Part shown: positions 54,857-59,867 of the stretch, one piece after another
How positions within the stretch are numbered: position 1 is the stretch's first letter
Layout: every line of letters begins with the position of its first letter
Assembly (NCBI GenBank): GCA_028377305.1
Contig: JAONJW010000006.1
Coordinates: 1-64,000 of the forward strand
Length of the DNA: 64,000 bases
Reading direction: 5' to 3'
Origin: Prolixibacteraceae bacterium
GTDB taxonomy: Bacteria; Bacteroidota; Bacteroidia; Bacteroidales; Prolixibacteraceae
Notes under the pieces: generated by a model
Database searches by the model: none
Told to the model about the DNA's origin: nothing
The model's input: only the letters and a program-made list of their open reading frames with translations
Program-made: the position numbers and the translations under genes

Positions 54857-55906
54857 ATGATTAATAGAAAGCTACTTGTTGCATTCATGTCCACAGTAAT
54901 AACAATAGGCTGTACAAACCGTAAAGTGTTAACCAAGAATTATTCTTTAAATGAGGTAGAAGAGAAAATTGAGATACTGCATACCTCTCCAAACCAATCT
55001 CTTAATAAGATAGATGTTTCCAAATTAAATCAGATGAAGCTCATCGACAAAAAATATCTTGTCTTAGTAGATAAAGCCTCTGAAAATAAAGGCATACTTA
55101 TTCTTGACAGAAAGAACTTTTCACTTTTAGGAAAAACAGGAATCAAAGGCGAGGGGCCTCAAGAGATTTCAAACTATAGTGAGCTTATTCCTTTTAAAGG
55201 TGGCTTCTTAATGGCAGACTACGCTAAAAAGATCCTCTATTTCTATGATATTAAAAAGGCCATTGAAGACACAAACTATTTACCAGAGACGTATGGCCCG
55301 CTAAAAACATTCCTATCATCGCTTCGAATCACAAAGGGTAATCAATACATCGGAACGCAATTAGGAATGTCACAATCAGTAGAAGGAGCACTAGAGATAA
55401 ATATTGTAAAAGGAGATATTAGTAAAGAAGAATCTGATCTTGTTATTCCCCACTACAAAGAGGTAGATGCTACACAAACCTCTATGGATCCTTCAAATCT
55501 TCTTTGCTATATTGAAAAAGATCAAGATCTGTTTAGTGTCTCTTATACTCCATATGATTTATTTACAATTTATAATGTCAACGGAGAGTTGGTACGTTCT
55601 ATAAAAGGAGAAGAGAAATTGAAGAAGAGAGAAGGATATAGCTATTTCCGGCATACTCAATTTACCCCAAATTATATATATGTAGATCATCAAAATAATG
55701 CAATCTACAAAAAGAATAACAAAGGGAAAATGCAATACGCTGGCTATAATACAATCCTTTGCTTCGATAGAGAGGGGACTTATCAAGAGACATTAGAGTC
55801 AGAACATCCTTTTGATCTTTTCTTAATTCTTCCCGATAAAAAAGAGATAATATTTTACCGTGCTAACAGCGACACCCCATTTACCTCAACACGACTATCT
55901 ATATAG
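54857..55906 (+). CDS. BF3164-like beta-propeller lipoprotein (copy A)
   Basis: 349 residues with lipobox TIGC (Cys about 19). The family signature is a TolB/BF3164-like six-bladed beta-propeller: the conserved turn GIKGEGPQEIS near residue 95, then ADYAKKILYFYDI, and the C-terminal SDTPFTSTRLSI. Its relatives at 56455 and 57905 share the GEGP-EIS turn and the SDTPFT end, but are much more diverged from this copy than from each other. BF3164 proteins lie in the envelope of Bacteroidota, often beside NVEALA-type peptides, and their function is not known. Confidence 0.82.
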   Translation: MINRKLLVAFMSTVITIGCTNRKVLTKNYSLNEVEEKIEILHTSPNQSLNKIDVSKLNQMKLIDKKYLVLVDKASENKGILILDRKNFSLLGKTGIKGEGPQEISNYSELIPFKGGFLMADYAKKILYFYDIKKAIEDTNYLPETYGPLKTFLSSLRITKGNQYIGTQLGMSQSVEGALEINIVKGDISKEESDLVIPHYKEVDATQTSMDPSNLLCYIEKDQDLFSVSYTPYDLFTIYNVNGELVRSIKGEEKLKKREGYSYFRHTQFTPNYIYVDHQNNAIYKKNNKGKMQYAGYNTILCFDREGTYQETLESEHPFDLFLILPDKKEIIFYRANSDTPFTSTRLSI

Positions 55907-56308
55907 AATATCATACATCGTCATTCTCCCGACAATTGAAGTTAGTTCAATTGTCGGGGGTTTTCTTTATTAGACCTCAAAATATCCATGGGAAGGAAAC
56001 TACAGAATATTTTGAAATTTTGCATGCTTCTTAACTCCTAACATTAGTTGCTATAACATACTGCCAACAGTGACATTCAACCTACTACTTTAGCTTATTT
56101 ACAAACATAATCTATAACAACAAGTTTTCTCTCCACTGAACATCCAGTATTAAACAGAATCATTCCATACCCCAAAACTATCAAAATGAAACAACATAAC
56201 CACATAAACAATTAAACTATTGTAACAATCGATATATATACATATACTTGCATTTATTAACTCTATTTAAATTAATTGCCATAAGATAATACTACTGCTC
56301 TTCCAATC
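55907..56308. other. Gene-free region before copy B
   Basis: Holds the terminator of copy A (55928-55968) and AT-rich DNA. No intact NVEALA-like gene is found, although the tail of one begins at 56309. Confidence 0.55.
55928..55968 (+). terminator. Rho-independent terminator after copy A
   Basis: Perfect 13-base stem CCCGACAATTGAA (55928-55940) / TTCAATTGTCGGG (55946-55958), then a T-rich run. Confidence 0.87.
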
Positions 56309-56344
56309 ATGCCTAAAAAAGCGGTGTATCCTTTCGGAAAATAA
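56309..56344 (+). pseudogene. Remnant 3' end of an NVEALA-like gene
   Basis: Twelve codons ending in a stop (MPKKAVYPFGK) align in position with the end of the NVEALA-like frame at 57572 (MPEIEMNPFAK). Both lie at the same distance before the hairpin and BF3164 gene. An in-frame stop lies just upstream (near 56281), so only the tail is left. Confidence 0.5.
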
Positions 56345-56356
56345 TTCGACAATCAC

Positions 56357-56386
56357 ATTGGAGTTGTTTGTAAAAACAACTCCAAT
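56357..56386 (+). promoter_or_regulatory. Hairpin before BF3164 copy B
   Basis: Perfect 13-base stem ATTGGAGTTGTTT (56357-56369) / AAACAACTCCAAT (56374-56386). There is no T-run. It could be the terminator of the lost upstream gene or a leader structure. The same hairpin recurs, partly decayed, before copy C at 57806-57836. Confidence 0.6.
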
Positions 56387-56454
56387 GTTGGTAAACAAGA
56401 CGACTTTCAAACTCAATTTTATAATAATACTAACAACTGTAAAGTATCTTCAAT

Positions 56455-57477
56455 ATGAAATTTTTAAACCTACTATTGCTCTCCTTGATTATTATATCTT
56501 GCTCAACCAAGAATGATAATAAAAAACTGTACCTGTGTGACGTACAACCTAAAATTATCAAAGCAAAGCAATCTCCTTTATACGCTCTCAATCATGCTGA
56601 TTTTGAACGCCCTTTTTCTATTAATAATATTGACAATAGATATCTTGTAATCACAGATGACAATGCTGTGGATAAAGGATTATATATATATGACATTAAT
56701 AACTTTAACCTTATTAATCGGACAGGAAAGCTTGGAGAAGGACCTGGTGAAATATCATATTACCTTAGTCCAATAGCATATAAAGATGGTTTTTTAATGA
56801 AAGATGGTAGTAAACAGCTATTCTATTATTTTAATATTCCACAGGTTAAAACAGAATCTGACTATCTTCCGACTATAATAACAAAATATCCTAATAAAAA
56901 GCATTTCCCATTTGCACTAAAAATGATAAATGACAGTAATTATATTGGTGTAGTTGCAACCATCAGTTCTACTGGTACATTTGAAATAGATATTGCCAAA
57001 GGAAACATATTTAACGATTCGATAGAACATCTTATAGATTTACCCCAAATAATAGACAATCACAATTTACAATACTTTTTTACTGCAAGCAAAAATAGAA
57101 TCGTAATGAGTTACCAATACTATAATATTTTTTCCATATATAATAATCATGGGGAAATCATTAAACACATTTATGGAAATAATAAGATTGCTAAAAATAG
57201 AATGAAAAACTATTTCAGTATTCCACAAACCGATGGTAGAGATATCTACATTCCATATAACCCTGACGATTCCAAATATAAAGATAAAAGAGGTCGTACA
57301 AGAACTAAAGGATATAATAGAATCCTTCATTTTGACATTAATGGCAATTATATCAACACCTTGAAAACCAATAAATATTTTAAGATCTGCACCATTCTTC
57401 CTACAAAGCATCAGCTACTTCTGTATAGCCCTCAAAGCGACACACCCTTTACCACTATCGATTACGCGAACCTATAA
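56455..57477 (+). CDS. BF3164-like beta-propeller lipoprotein (copy B)
   Basis: 340 residues. The lipoprotein signal is MKFLNLLLLSLIIISC (lipobox IISC, Cys 16). Propeller motifs are KLGEGPGEISYY (near 95), FMKDGSKQLFYYF and the SDTPFTTIDYANL end. Its first about 28 codons and last about 35 codons are almost identical at the DNA level to copy C (57905), but the middle differs in most positions. This mosaic pattern suggests duplication followed by divergence or recombination at the ends. The next start, a truncated redoxin-like gene, lies nine bases beyond. Confidence 0.82.
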   Translation: MKFLNLLLLSLIIISCSTKNDNKKLYLCDVQPKIIKAKQSPLYALNHADFERPFSINNIDNRYLVITDDNAVDKGLYIYDINNFNLINRTGKLGEGPGEISYYLSPIAYKDGFLMKDGSKQLFYYFNIPQVKTESDYLPTIITKYPNKKHFPFALKMINDSNYIGVVATISSTGTFEIDIAKGNIFNDSIEHLIDLPQIIDNHNLQYFFTASKNRIVMSYQYYNIFSIYNNHGEIIKHIYGNNKIAKNRMKNYFSIPQTDGRDIYIPYNPDDSKYKDKRGRTRTKGYNRILHFDINGNYINTLKTNKYFKICTILPTKHQLLLYSPQSDTPFTTIDYANL

Positions 57478-57486
57478 TTAACAACA

Positions 57487-57589
57487 ATGAAACCTACCAA
57501 GTTTATACTTCTCCTATGGTCTCTTGGCTCGATAGCAACCTCTTGCCATCATAAACCCAAAGTTTCTTTTATTGGAAAACAGATTCATT
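57487..57589 (+). pseudogene. Truncated copy of the redoxin-like lipoprotein gene
   Basis: Begins with the same 5' end as the gene at 58937 (MKPTKFILLLWSLGSIATSC, with near-identical DNA including the nine-base spacing to the upstream BF3164 stop). The match continues to about 57589 (codon 34) and then stops abruptly. Only the signal peptide and first residues remain. Confidence 0.85.
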
Positions 57590-57793
57590 GCAACAGGTGG
57601 AATTTTTGGATATTTACATGCACATGCCGAAGAGGCTTCAAAAAAGCTTACTCCTTGTCCTAATGGGTGTCTGACAACAAAAGGATCATGTATGTGTGGT
57701 GAAACACACCCTTATGATGAAGCTAATTCAAAGGTGATAGTTCATCACCTTACTTTGATGCCTGAAATTGAAATGAATCCTTTCGCTAAATAA
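57572..57793 (+). pseudogene. NVEALA-like cysteine-rich peptide gene, 5' end replaced
   Basis: A frame of 73 codons whose first codon is a TTG inside the truncated redoxin copy. From about 57590 onward the sequence is unrelated to redoxin and encodes GGIFGYLHAHAEEASKKL, then CPNGCLTTKGSCMCGETHPY. Short Cys/Gly-rich tails of this kind resemble NVEALA-family peptides, which have an N-terminal leader and four or more Cys. The original leader appears to have been lost at the junction. Whether it is still translated is unclear. The NVEALA call is by resemblance only. Confidence 0.5.
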
Positions 57794-57805
57794 CACAGTA
57801 ATCAC

Positions 57806-57836
57806 ATTGGAGTTGTTTGTAACAAACAACACTAAT
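57806..57836 (+). promoter_or_regulatory. Decayed hairpin before BF3164 copy C
   Basis: ATTGGAGTTGTTTG (57806-57819) and CAAACAACACTAAT (57823-57836) pair with two mismatches. It corresponds to the perfect hairpin before copy B. Confidence 0.5.
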
Positions 57837-57904
57837 GTTAGTAAAAAAGACGAACTTCAAACTCAATTTTATAATAATACTAACAACTGTAAAGTATCTT
57901 CAAT

Positions 57905-58927
57905 ATGAAATTTTTAAACCTACTATTGCTCTCCTTGATTATTATATCTTGCTCAACCAAGAATGATAATAAAAAACTGTACCTGTGTGATATCGATCAA
58001 AATAAAATTGCAGTAAAACAGACTCCTGTCGATATTCTAAATAAAGAGCCATTAGGTCGTCCTTTTTTTATTGACAATATAAAAGACCAATACCTTGTTA
58101 TCACAGATATGGAAGCATACGACAAAGGATTATTTATCTACGACATCAACAACTTTACCCCCTTAGCTGCAACAGGGATACTTGGAGAAGGGCCTGGTGA
58201 GATTTCTTTTTATAGTGAATTAGCGCCATACAAAGATGGCATCATAATGCAAGATAACAGTAAATTATTATATTATTATTATGATTTGAACAAGGCGATA
58301 CAAGACAAAAGCTATCTTCCCGAAGAAGTAGTGCAATATAAAAATAAGAAGTTATTTCCATTTCACTATGTCATGAGGTCAGATAGTACATATGTTGGAA
58401 TGGTCGGACATATTACATCACATAGCACATATAGAATTGAAGTGGCGAAGGGTAATATATTTATGGATTCAATAGAACACCTTATAGATATACCACAAGA
58501 GATCGACAATCATAATCTACAGTTCTTCTTTTCGGCGAGTAACAAAAGAATATTCATAAATTATCATTACTATGACCTTTTTTCAATATATGATAATGAT
58601 GGCAAAGAGATTAAACAGATCTATGGCTCTCGTAAGATACTTAAAGATGTGAGCAAGACCCATTATAACTTTGCTCAAACCGATGGCAAAGATATCTATA
58701 TCCCATATAACCCTGATGTATCTAAGCACAAAGACAAAAGAGGTAGGATAAAGTCTACTGGATATAAAATGATTCTTCACTTCGATATAAATGGGAACTA
58801 TATTAATACGCTCAAGACAGATGATTCTTTTGAGATCTGCACCATTCTTCCTAAAAAGCATCAGCTACTTCTGTATAGCCCCCAAAGCGACACACCCTTT
58901 ACCACTATCGATTACGCGAACCTATAA
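57905..58927 (+). CDS. BF3164-like beta-propeller lipoprotein (copy C)
   Basis: 340 residues, the same length as copy B and exactly 1,450 bases downstream of it. It has the same signal peptide MKFLNLLLLSLIIISC, the turn ILGEGPGEISFY, the MQDNSKLLYYYYDL segment and the SDTPFTTIDYANL end. The middle third differs from copy B while keeping the propeller pattern. It is followed nine bases later by the full-length redoxin-like gene, so it is the likely original position of the cassette. Confidence 0.83.
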   Translation: MKFLNLLLLSLIIISCSTKNDNKKLYLCDIDQNKIAVKQTPVDILNKEPLGRPFFIDNIKDQYLVITDMEAYDKGLFIYDINNFTPLAATGILGEGPGEISFYSELAPYKDGIIMQDNSKLLYYYYDLNKAIQDKSYLPEEVVQYKNKKLFPFHYVMRSDSTYVGMVGHITSHSTYRIEVAKGNIFMDSIEHLIDIPQEIDNHNLQFFFSASNKRIFINYHYYDLFSIYDNDGKEIKQIYGSRKILKDVSKTHYNFAQTDGKDIYIPYNPDVSKHKDKRGRIKSTGYKMILHFDINGNYINTLKTDDSFEICTILPKKHQLLLYSPQSDTPFTTIDYANL

Positions 58928-58936
58928 TTAACAACA

Positions 58937-59489
58937 ATGAAACCTACCAAGTTTATACTTCTCCTATGGTCTTTTGGCACGATAGCAACCTCTTGCCATC
59001 ATAAACCCAAAGATCCTTTTATTGGCAAACAGATTCATTTAGACAAAGAATTAAAGTTGATCTTCAACCAATTGGTGATACAAGATATTCCAGATAGCTT
59101 ACAGAAGGGCAAATATCGCATTATCACCATTCATGATGCAACATGTCCTAAGTGCATATATGGAAAGCTAAACCTTGTAGACCAGGAGCTTTTTAGCAGA
59201 CTTCATGGGATAGATAAGATGGATGTGATTCATATTTTAAATATTCAACCGGGTGATTCACTCTATTTTAGAAATAAGATGTATGCACAGGTAAAAGTGC
59301 AAGGGGAATTGATATGGGATAGGAACTTTATTTTTGAGGAAAGCAACGAGCTTTTTACTCCCGATGAGTCAAAGCGTGTATTTCTAGTCGATCCCCAACA
59401 ACAAGATCTTAATGACTGGAGATCCATTACTAGATCCTGACTGTATTCATCGTTATAATGACATGATTGATACAATACCTGCTTTATGA
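58937..59489 (+). pseudogene. Thioredoxin-like lipoprotein gene with frameshift
   Basis: A lipoprotein signal (lipobox IATSC, Cys about 20) is followed by a thioredoxin-like domain with the CxxC motif DATCPKCIYGKL. As written, the frame ends at 59440 in a non-family tail. Dropping one C from the CCCC run at 59393-59396 gives FLVDPNNKILMTGDPLLDPD and continues to a stop at 59489. That is the expected end of a redoxin-like protein. The restored stop overlaps the next ATG (59486) by four bases. The frameshift is either real decay or a sequencing error in a homopolymer. A role in disulphide chemistry or redox in the envelope is likely. Confidence 0.8.
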
Positions 59490-59867
59490 GATATATAGTT
59501 AGCATATTTTTTTTATATTTATTTATAAAATATTCTTCTCCGACTTCAATAGACTCGGGAGGAACATTTTCAGGCTATAATAGGATCGAGTCAAACCATA
59601 ATAGTTCCGATAGAAAAGTGCTCTAATAAACTCCAAATTAAGGTTTTATTAGAAAATAGAGGAGTGAGACCTATCTGTATCTATCGTTTGATCTCTTTCT
59701 GTGGGTGTGTTAACCCACAATGGGATACAAAGCCAGTGGTTCCAAACCAAAGAACCACCATCACATTAACCATAAAGAACGAGGATCAATCGAAGTTACA
59801 AAAGAGGTGTCTGATTAAACATAGTGGTGCATCTGTTCCAGATACACTATACATAAGATCCCAATAA
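59486..59867 (+). pseudogene. DUF1573-domain protein gene with frameshift
   Basis: The ATG at 59486 overlaps the restored stop of the redoxin-like gene (ATGA), implying coupling. It starts MRYIVSIFFLYLFIKYSS (signal/anchor). As written the frame stops early, but removing one T from the TTTT run at 59567-59570 gives GGTFQAIIGSSQTIIVPIEK and continues through the DUF1573 core (FCGCVNPQW) to the stop at 59867. DUF1573 is an Ig-like domain found near redoxin and BF3164 genes in Bacteroidota. The two frameshifts lie only about 170 bases apart in separate genes. Confidence 0.72.

Follow-up and report, generated by a model that had tools for sequence, protein, structure and literature searches.

The window, a 64,000-nt stretch of a Prolixibacteraceae genome available as a draft assembly (154 contigs, 77% completeness), contains three propeller lipoprotein genes, here called U, A and B; the label "BF3164-like" is that of the original prediction. 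Downstream of them come genes for a redoxin-like protein (58937), a DUF1573 protein, a HlyD-type protein and an AcrB-type pump. Between A and B lies a truncated redoxin 5′ end joined to a Cys-rich peptide frame. For comparison we used the corresponding loci of two genomes of the same genus, L033 in genome G003 and L034 in genome G001. NCBIfam searches with single window proteins gave nothing beyond one stray weak match.

Table 1. Features of the propeller locus, in window coordinates.
Feature	Position	Strand	Observation
Propeller lipoprotein gene U	54857..55906	+	Open; 66% identical to its G003 counterpart
Remnant matching the stretch ahead of G003 peptide 1 (propeller 3′ end and intergenic)	56063..56276	+	68% over 224 aligned columns with L033 5205-5418
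Decayed peptide gene ahead of gene A, of which the tail is left	56300..56344	+	In-frame LPIMPKKAVYPFGK, then a stop; resembles the chimera tail
Inverted repeat in the gap between peptide tail and gene A	56355..56388	+	Minus-strand blast self-match
5′ copied tract, common to gene B (57856-57990)	56406..56540	+	0 mismatches in 135 nt
Propeller lipoprotein gene A	56455..57477	+	Open, 340 aa
3′ copied tract (propeller 3′ end and redoxin 5′ end), common to 58833-59039	57383..57589	+	7 mismatches in 207 nt; right edge coincides with the junction
Truncated redoxin 5′ fragment	57487..57589	+	57487-57588 identical at 97 of 102 nt to 58937-59038
Cys-rich peptide gene without its own start	57590..57793	+	TTG ORF 57572-57793; tail match E 1.2e-6
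Imperfect copy of the inverted repeat	57804..57838	+	Minus-strand blast self-match
Propeller lipoprotein gene B	57905..58927	+	76% amino acid identity to G003 copy 1
Redoxin-like gene, frameshift near 3′ end	58937..59440	+	G003 counterpart aligns in two frames
DUF1573 gene split by a frameshift	59486..59867	+	PF07610 E 1.8e-9 on the second part; two frames against G003

The original prediction placed the end of redoxin homology at about 57589, and the alignment agrees: position 57589 still matches the start of the full redoxin gene, and the first mismatch beyond it is 57590. The frame that runs on from there, ATGGIFGYLHAHAEEASKKLTPCPNGCLTTKGSCMCGETHPYDEANSK..., is rich in Cys and Gly, encodes ATGGIFGYLHAHAEEASKKLTPCPNGCLTTKGSCMCGETHPYDEA followed by a further tail, and stays open to 57793. 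Its listed start, the TTG at 57572, lies within the redoxin-derived part. A one-frame redoxin-peptide fusion was rejected, because the stop of the redoxin frame, at 57663, is not in the frame of the peptide. The two sequences overlap at the join by about 2 nt (TT, by eye). The junction is real. Junction-spanning k-mers (12-30 nt) were sampled and each was found once in the window, and differences between the fragment and the full redoxin gene reach up to 13 nt from the junction. Four of these differences could be polarised by eye with G003, all to the fragment side, and a fifth could not. The dN/dS ratio of fragment to full redoxin was 1.16, on only 5 differences, and that of the full redoxin to G003 was 0.05.

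When we searched 61 genomes with the peptide, seven, including the window's own, gave matches at E <=0.1. The clear outside matches were two places in G003 (2.9e-10 and 1.2e-6); three matches in G001 were weaker (0.011-0.018). Intact versions of the gene, which the original prediction had proposed to look for at the orthologous locus, are present before propeller genes in both same-genus genomes (L033 15736-15909 and L034 5368-5604), and they carry a signal-like leader of about 23 residues, MKKLLLICILATGGIFGY in G003 and MRKLFFVCVFSVCGLFGF in G001. The window copy retains only ATGGIFGY of this leader: relative to the G003 peptide it lacks the first ten residues, so that its charged end is gone and its hydrophobic stretch is shortened, which bears out the claim that the peptide's own start had been replaced. 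Its best 11-residue hydropathy is 1.55, compared with 2.52 in the G003 peptide. The gene for the intact G003 peptide (57 aa, MKKLLLICILATGGIFGYVNAIAGPGDE...CPNGC) lies between a truncated redoxin and a propeller gene downstream. G003 peptide 1, ahead of the first B-type copy, is decayed, with two internal stops; the window compared with peptide 1 gave pN 0.40 and pS 0.49, values compatible with constraint as well as with its absence. In G001, four peptide genes closely resemble one another (78 aa, CPNGC tails). Three are immediately followed by a propeller gene, and in the remaining case a transposase gene intervenes; the propeller copy preceding these has ahead of it a fifth peptide gene, which is divergent. 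One of the four differs from the other three at 12-15 of 237 nt, chiefly within the tail, and directly precedes the most divergent of propeller copies 2-5 (L034 9735-11058).

An arginine, a stretch of moderate hydrophobicity and an AHA site are still encoded in the chimeric TTG ORF, whose product may thus be weakly exported. Judging from what the leader has lost, the window copy has probably lost its function, and the peptide is probably not made or not exported now; the break looks like ordinary gene decay. A peptide profile found no second copy in the part of the window genome that is present, and since that genome is 77% complete an intact peptide could lie elsewhere in it.

The decayed tail ahead of gene A (copy B of the original prediction, which had reported this remnant) is 75% identical to the chimera over 77 nt, in register with 57749-57825, and from 56309 onward the identity is 86% over 147 nt with 57758-57904. 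Because 56063-56276 resembles the stretch before G003 peptide 1 and a peptide tail is left at 56300-56344, gene A probably once had a peptide gene of its own. The broader claim that such a gene preceded every BF3164 gene did not hold: G003 copies 1, 2 and 3 are consecutive with none between them, and the window ORF list has no peptide-like ORF directly upstream of gene U.

Whether the peptide is NVEALA-like, as predicted, depends on which part of it is considered. At the gathering cut-off the Pfam NVEALA model (PF14055) matched neither the window peptide nor the G003 peptide and one intact G001 peptide, and nothing in the window's own genome exceeded the cut-off. The NVEALA motif at the leader end is absent from the aligned window, G003 and G001 peptides. 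With a profile made from 13 propeller sequences, three of the window and ten of G003 and G001, we found 26 loci in named records. Seven carry the label Parabacteroides and five the label Bacteroides, one is in a bin labelled Lachnospiraceae, and the remainder belong to further Bacteroidota, among them Marinifilum, Sphingobacterium and Alistipes. From these we chose by eye 15 NVEALA-type peptides, each encoded by the ORF just before the propeller match, leaving 11 of the 26 loci unused; the loci came from the propeller profile, and two of the 15 peptides had no Pfam match (L071) or fell under the cut-off (L085). A profile of these peptides matched the window peptide through its tail at E 1.2e-6, the next of 2827 window segments scoring E 1.7, and gave 3e-7 to 8e-7 for the four G001 CPNGC peptides and 6.5e-5 and 0.0047 for two G003 peptides. 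PF14055 matched 14 of the 19 aligned peptides, the window, G003 and G001 members being unmatched where tested singly; NCBIfam gave one stray match, in one of the 19. We therefore place the window peptide in the NVEALA class provisionally, by tail homology only. Other genera of the same family have the motif (G309, G015) or looser forms of it (G031, G355), suggesting that loss of the motif and the short leader are derived in the window's genus.

To the original prediction the junction marked a duplication breakpoint. The junction stands, but the comparison of the propeller genes showed this account to be too simple. Between their ends, A and B are 52-76% identical per 30 codons. A matches G003 copy 3 at 82-97% in codon windows 60 to 240, and B matches G003 copy 1 at 70-88% in windows 30 to 300; at codons 60-89, B vs. 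copy 1 and A vs. B are level (70% each). The first 30 codons are just 56-57% identical to G003, so the identity of the A and B ends is not due to general conservation. On these identities A and B are old paralogues whose middles predate the split from G003 and whose ends were copied recently. The array of G001 has a similar pattern, copies 2-4 being 100% identical over the first and last 90 nt and copy b4 standing at 82-97% in much of the middle. Propellers A and B look to be under constraint, with dN/dS values of 0.31 overall and 0.25 in the middle for A vs. copy 3, and 0.13 and 0.11 for B vs. copy 1; U gave 0.11 against its G003 counterpart at saturated dS. The three window genes were the only such propeller genes found in the 77% complete genome, and G002, a third genome of the genus, had none at E 1e-5.

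The products of A, B and U had no match to Pfam PF15869, and A had two weak unrelated matches. All three nonetheless align with 15 outside proteins, and among these 18 sequences PF15869 matched 15 and PF17170 matched 14; NCBIfam gave an unrelated name in three of the 18. The structural model of B (pLDDT 87.7, pTM 0.85) is mostly beta, and its best matches in the PDB were NHL propellers (rank 1, TMq 0.56), with a Bacteroides DUF4221 protein at rank 21. The gene B product is accordingly predicted by the model to have a propeller fold.

We also surveyed frame breaks downstream and around the locus. Of 59 G003 ORFs of at least 100 aa taken from the corresponding region, 39 aligned with the window at >45% identity and 20 did not. 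No frame break or stop was present in the window for 37 of the 39, and the two exceptions were the adjacent redoxin and DUF1573 genes. General sequencing noise as the cause of these two frameshifts was rejected, given the 37 unbroken frames and the fact that the broken ones are neighbors. The species thus seems to retain its propellers, with decay under way in the peptide gene and two accessory genes. Between the redoxin and those of NVEALA loci there is a distant relationship (pairwise hhalign probability 95.7%, and 86.8% to the redoxins of two loci of the same family). The hairpin-bearing 109-nt gap before A folds with a z of -5.6 against mononucleotide shuffles and the 111-nt gap before B with -3.3. 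Corresponding gaps in G001 (-2.0 to -3.9) and G003 (-2.0 and -2.9) fold too, with other sequence, and there may be an intercistronic element conserved in position. Transposase genes (PF01609; ISL3-type PF01610; another with only HTH_38) break the arrays at L033 8925-14665 and L034 5689-6954. In two outside genomes, a signal peptidase gene (PF10502) stands amid NVEALA peptide and propeller genes (L063 13335-14225 and L065 2293-3180); this peptidase might process NVEALA peptides.

How did the junction arise? Recent copying affected the ends of A and B, which as whole genes are old paralogues, and the 3′ copied tract stops exactly at the junction; we therefore read the junction as the illegitimate edge of such a tract. 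We consider it fairly likely that such a tract broke an NVEALA-class exported-peptide gene while both propellers stayed open. Relatives with intact peptides have, in order, a peptide gene, a propeller lipoprotein gene and, at the end of the array, the redoxin gene. In the window's lineage, a tract that spans the 3′ end of propeller B and the 5′ end of the redoxin would have been copied beside propeller A, with its left edge in homologous propeller sequence and its right edge joined illegitimately into the peptide gene. That join would have cost the peptide gene its upstream region, the start codon and roughly ten residues of the leader. The intact peptide, we infer, is an exported ligand or substrate of the adjoining propeller. 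Counting against the copied tract is that no unbroken sister strain shows the state before the event.

Its main rival is tandem duplication followed by gene conversion, which gives similar traces. A recent duplication of the whole unit as sole cause was rejected, the middles of A and B being divergent and the ends near-identical. A single tandem duplication of peptide, propeller and redoxin, with breakpoints in the redoxin and the peptide and with the middle of A later replaced by an old paralogue, would account for the unit spacing of about 1450 nt and for the redoxin-to-peptide join, and G003 too has a truncated redoxin before a peptide gene, although with a different end. We nevertheless regard it as rather unlikely, since the middles fall so far below the 97-100% of the end tracts, divergence is much greater in the tail remnant ahead of A than in the redoxin fragment, and an A-type donor is required in a genome in which only the three window propellers were found. 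That the chimera is instead a working new gene, started at the TTG and putatively still exported by a shortened signal sequence, is favored by the frame, which is open for 73 codons, and by the retained CPNGC...CMC and AHA site; the loss of the original start, upstream region and leader front, the weaker hydrophobic stretch and the frameshifts in two neighboring genes make this improbable. Near-identical tracts favor misjoins, and in so fragmented and incomplete a draft an assembly error has to be considered, but sampled junction k-mers that never recur in the window, fragment differences so close to the junction and unbroken frames in nearly all matched G003 ORFs leave it very improbable indeed. 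The copied tract thus remains our preferred reading.

We then asked how peptides and propellers are paired more widely. In the 26 outside loci an NVEALA peptide was upstream of 15 of 32 propeller-like ORFs, compared with 23 of 195 other ORFs of at least 200 aa (Fisher 1.3e-5), many of the 23 also resembling propeller lipoproteins by eye. The pairing set comprised 36 loci (L063, L111 and L117 left out) and 56 peptides, 51 with a long ORF behind them and five dropped. Behind the 13 peptides with CxNGC/CxDGC tails stand propellers with scores of 41.6-134 bits against the window profile (89-134 for the 12 with CPNGC), whereas the propellers of the other 38 score -3.8 to 86.5 bits (Mann-Whitney 1e-7). 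Leaders were more similar within than between genomes (0.468 vs. 0.306), and tails were not (0.125 vs. 0.132). Tail similarity followed propeller similarity (rho 0.247, 0 of 500 shuffles) more closely than leader similarity did (0.123, 31 of 500); with the set thinned to 42 of the 51 pairs, the values were 0.212 for tail given leader (0 of 500) and 0.102 for leader given tail (57 of 500). After removal of the CxNGC class, the tail rho for the remaining 33 pairs was 0.112, reached by 20 of 500 shuffles, and the leader rho was 0.104. Within genomes (44 comparisons) the propeller was followed about equally by leader (0.219) and tail (0.261). Two L081 propellers are a counter-example, resembling CPNGC-type ones yet having other tails. 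The correlations suggest a tail-propeller link that is strong for the CPNGC class and weak otherwise, and co-inheritance of linked genes without binding would yield the same correlation.

As a tentative model, which we put forward as one possibility, NVEALA-class peptides and the propellers encoded downstream would be putative cognate pairs, the leader being homogenized within each genome and the diversified Cys-rich tail fitting its own propeller. Intact peptides would be exported and oxidized with the help of the redoxin, and then bound by the neighboring propeller as a ligand or immunity partner. Arrays would diversify by recombination that copies propeller ends and keeps middles distinct; in the window's genus a plain signal-like leader would have taken the place of the NVEALA motif, and the window's species would have lost the peptide and kept the propellers. 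That particular peptide types go with particular propeller types may be new. In the collection of papers searched, none contained the word "NVEALA"; the Pfam names brought up nothing relevant, judged by title, and searches on BF3164 and on wider subjects contributed nothing used here. NVEALA peptides and TolB_like-type lipoproteins adjoin, often in arrays, in gut and marine Bacteroidota, and the tracking of propeller type by tail type in one clear class makes a direct test of binding possible. In the window's genus such a tail occurs with no NVEALA motif, which limits the roles that the motif could have.

Like members of the NVEALA family (PF14055), the window peptide is a small precursor with a hydrophobic N-terminus and a Cys-rich tail, encoded directly before a TolB_like-type propeller lipoprotein gene, and it has its CPNGC...C-x-C tail in common with one class of these peptides. 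The peptides of the window's genus differ from the family in lacking the motif and the Pfam match and in their short, signal-peptide-like leader, and the window copy also lacks a start. The propellers resemble the TolB_like / DUF5128 6-bladed propeller lipoproteins (PF15869, PF17170) in the alignment of A, B and U and in the propeller-like model of B, and differ in that the window's own three are unmatched by PF15869. Pilin cassettes are gene families with recombining ends and differing middles. Unlike in those, the middles here have dN/dS well under 1 and an arrangement of silent and expressed cassettes is not seen; what A and B have in common with pilin cassettes is near-identical ends around divergent middles.
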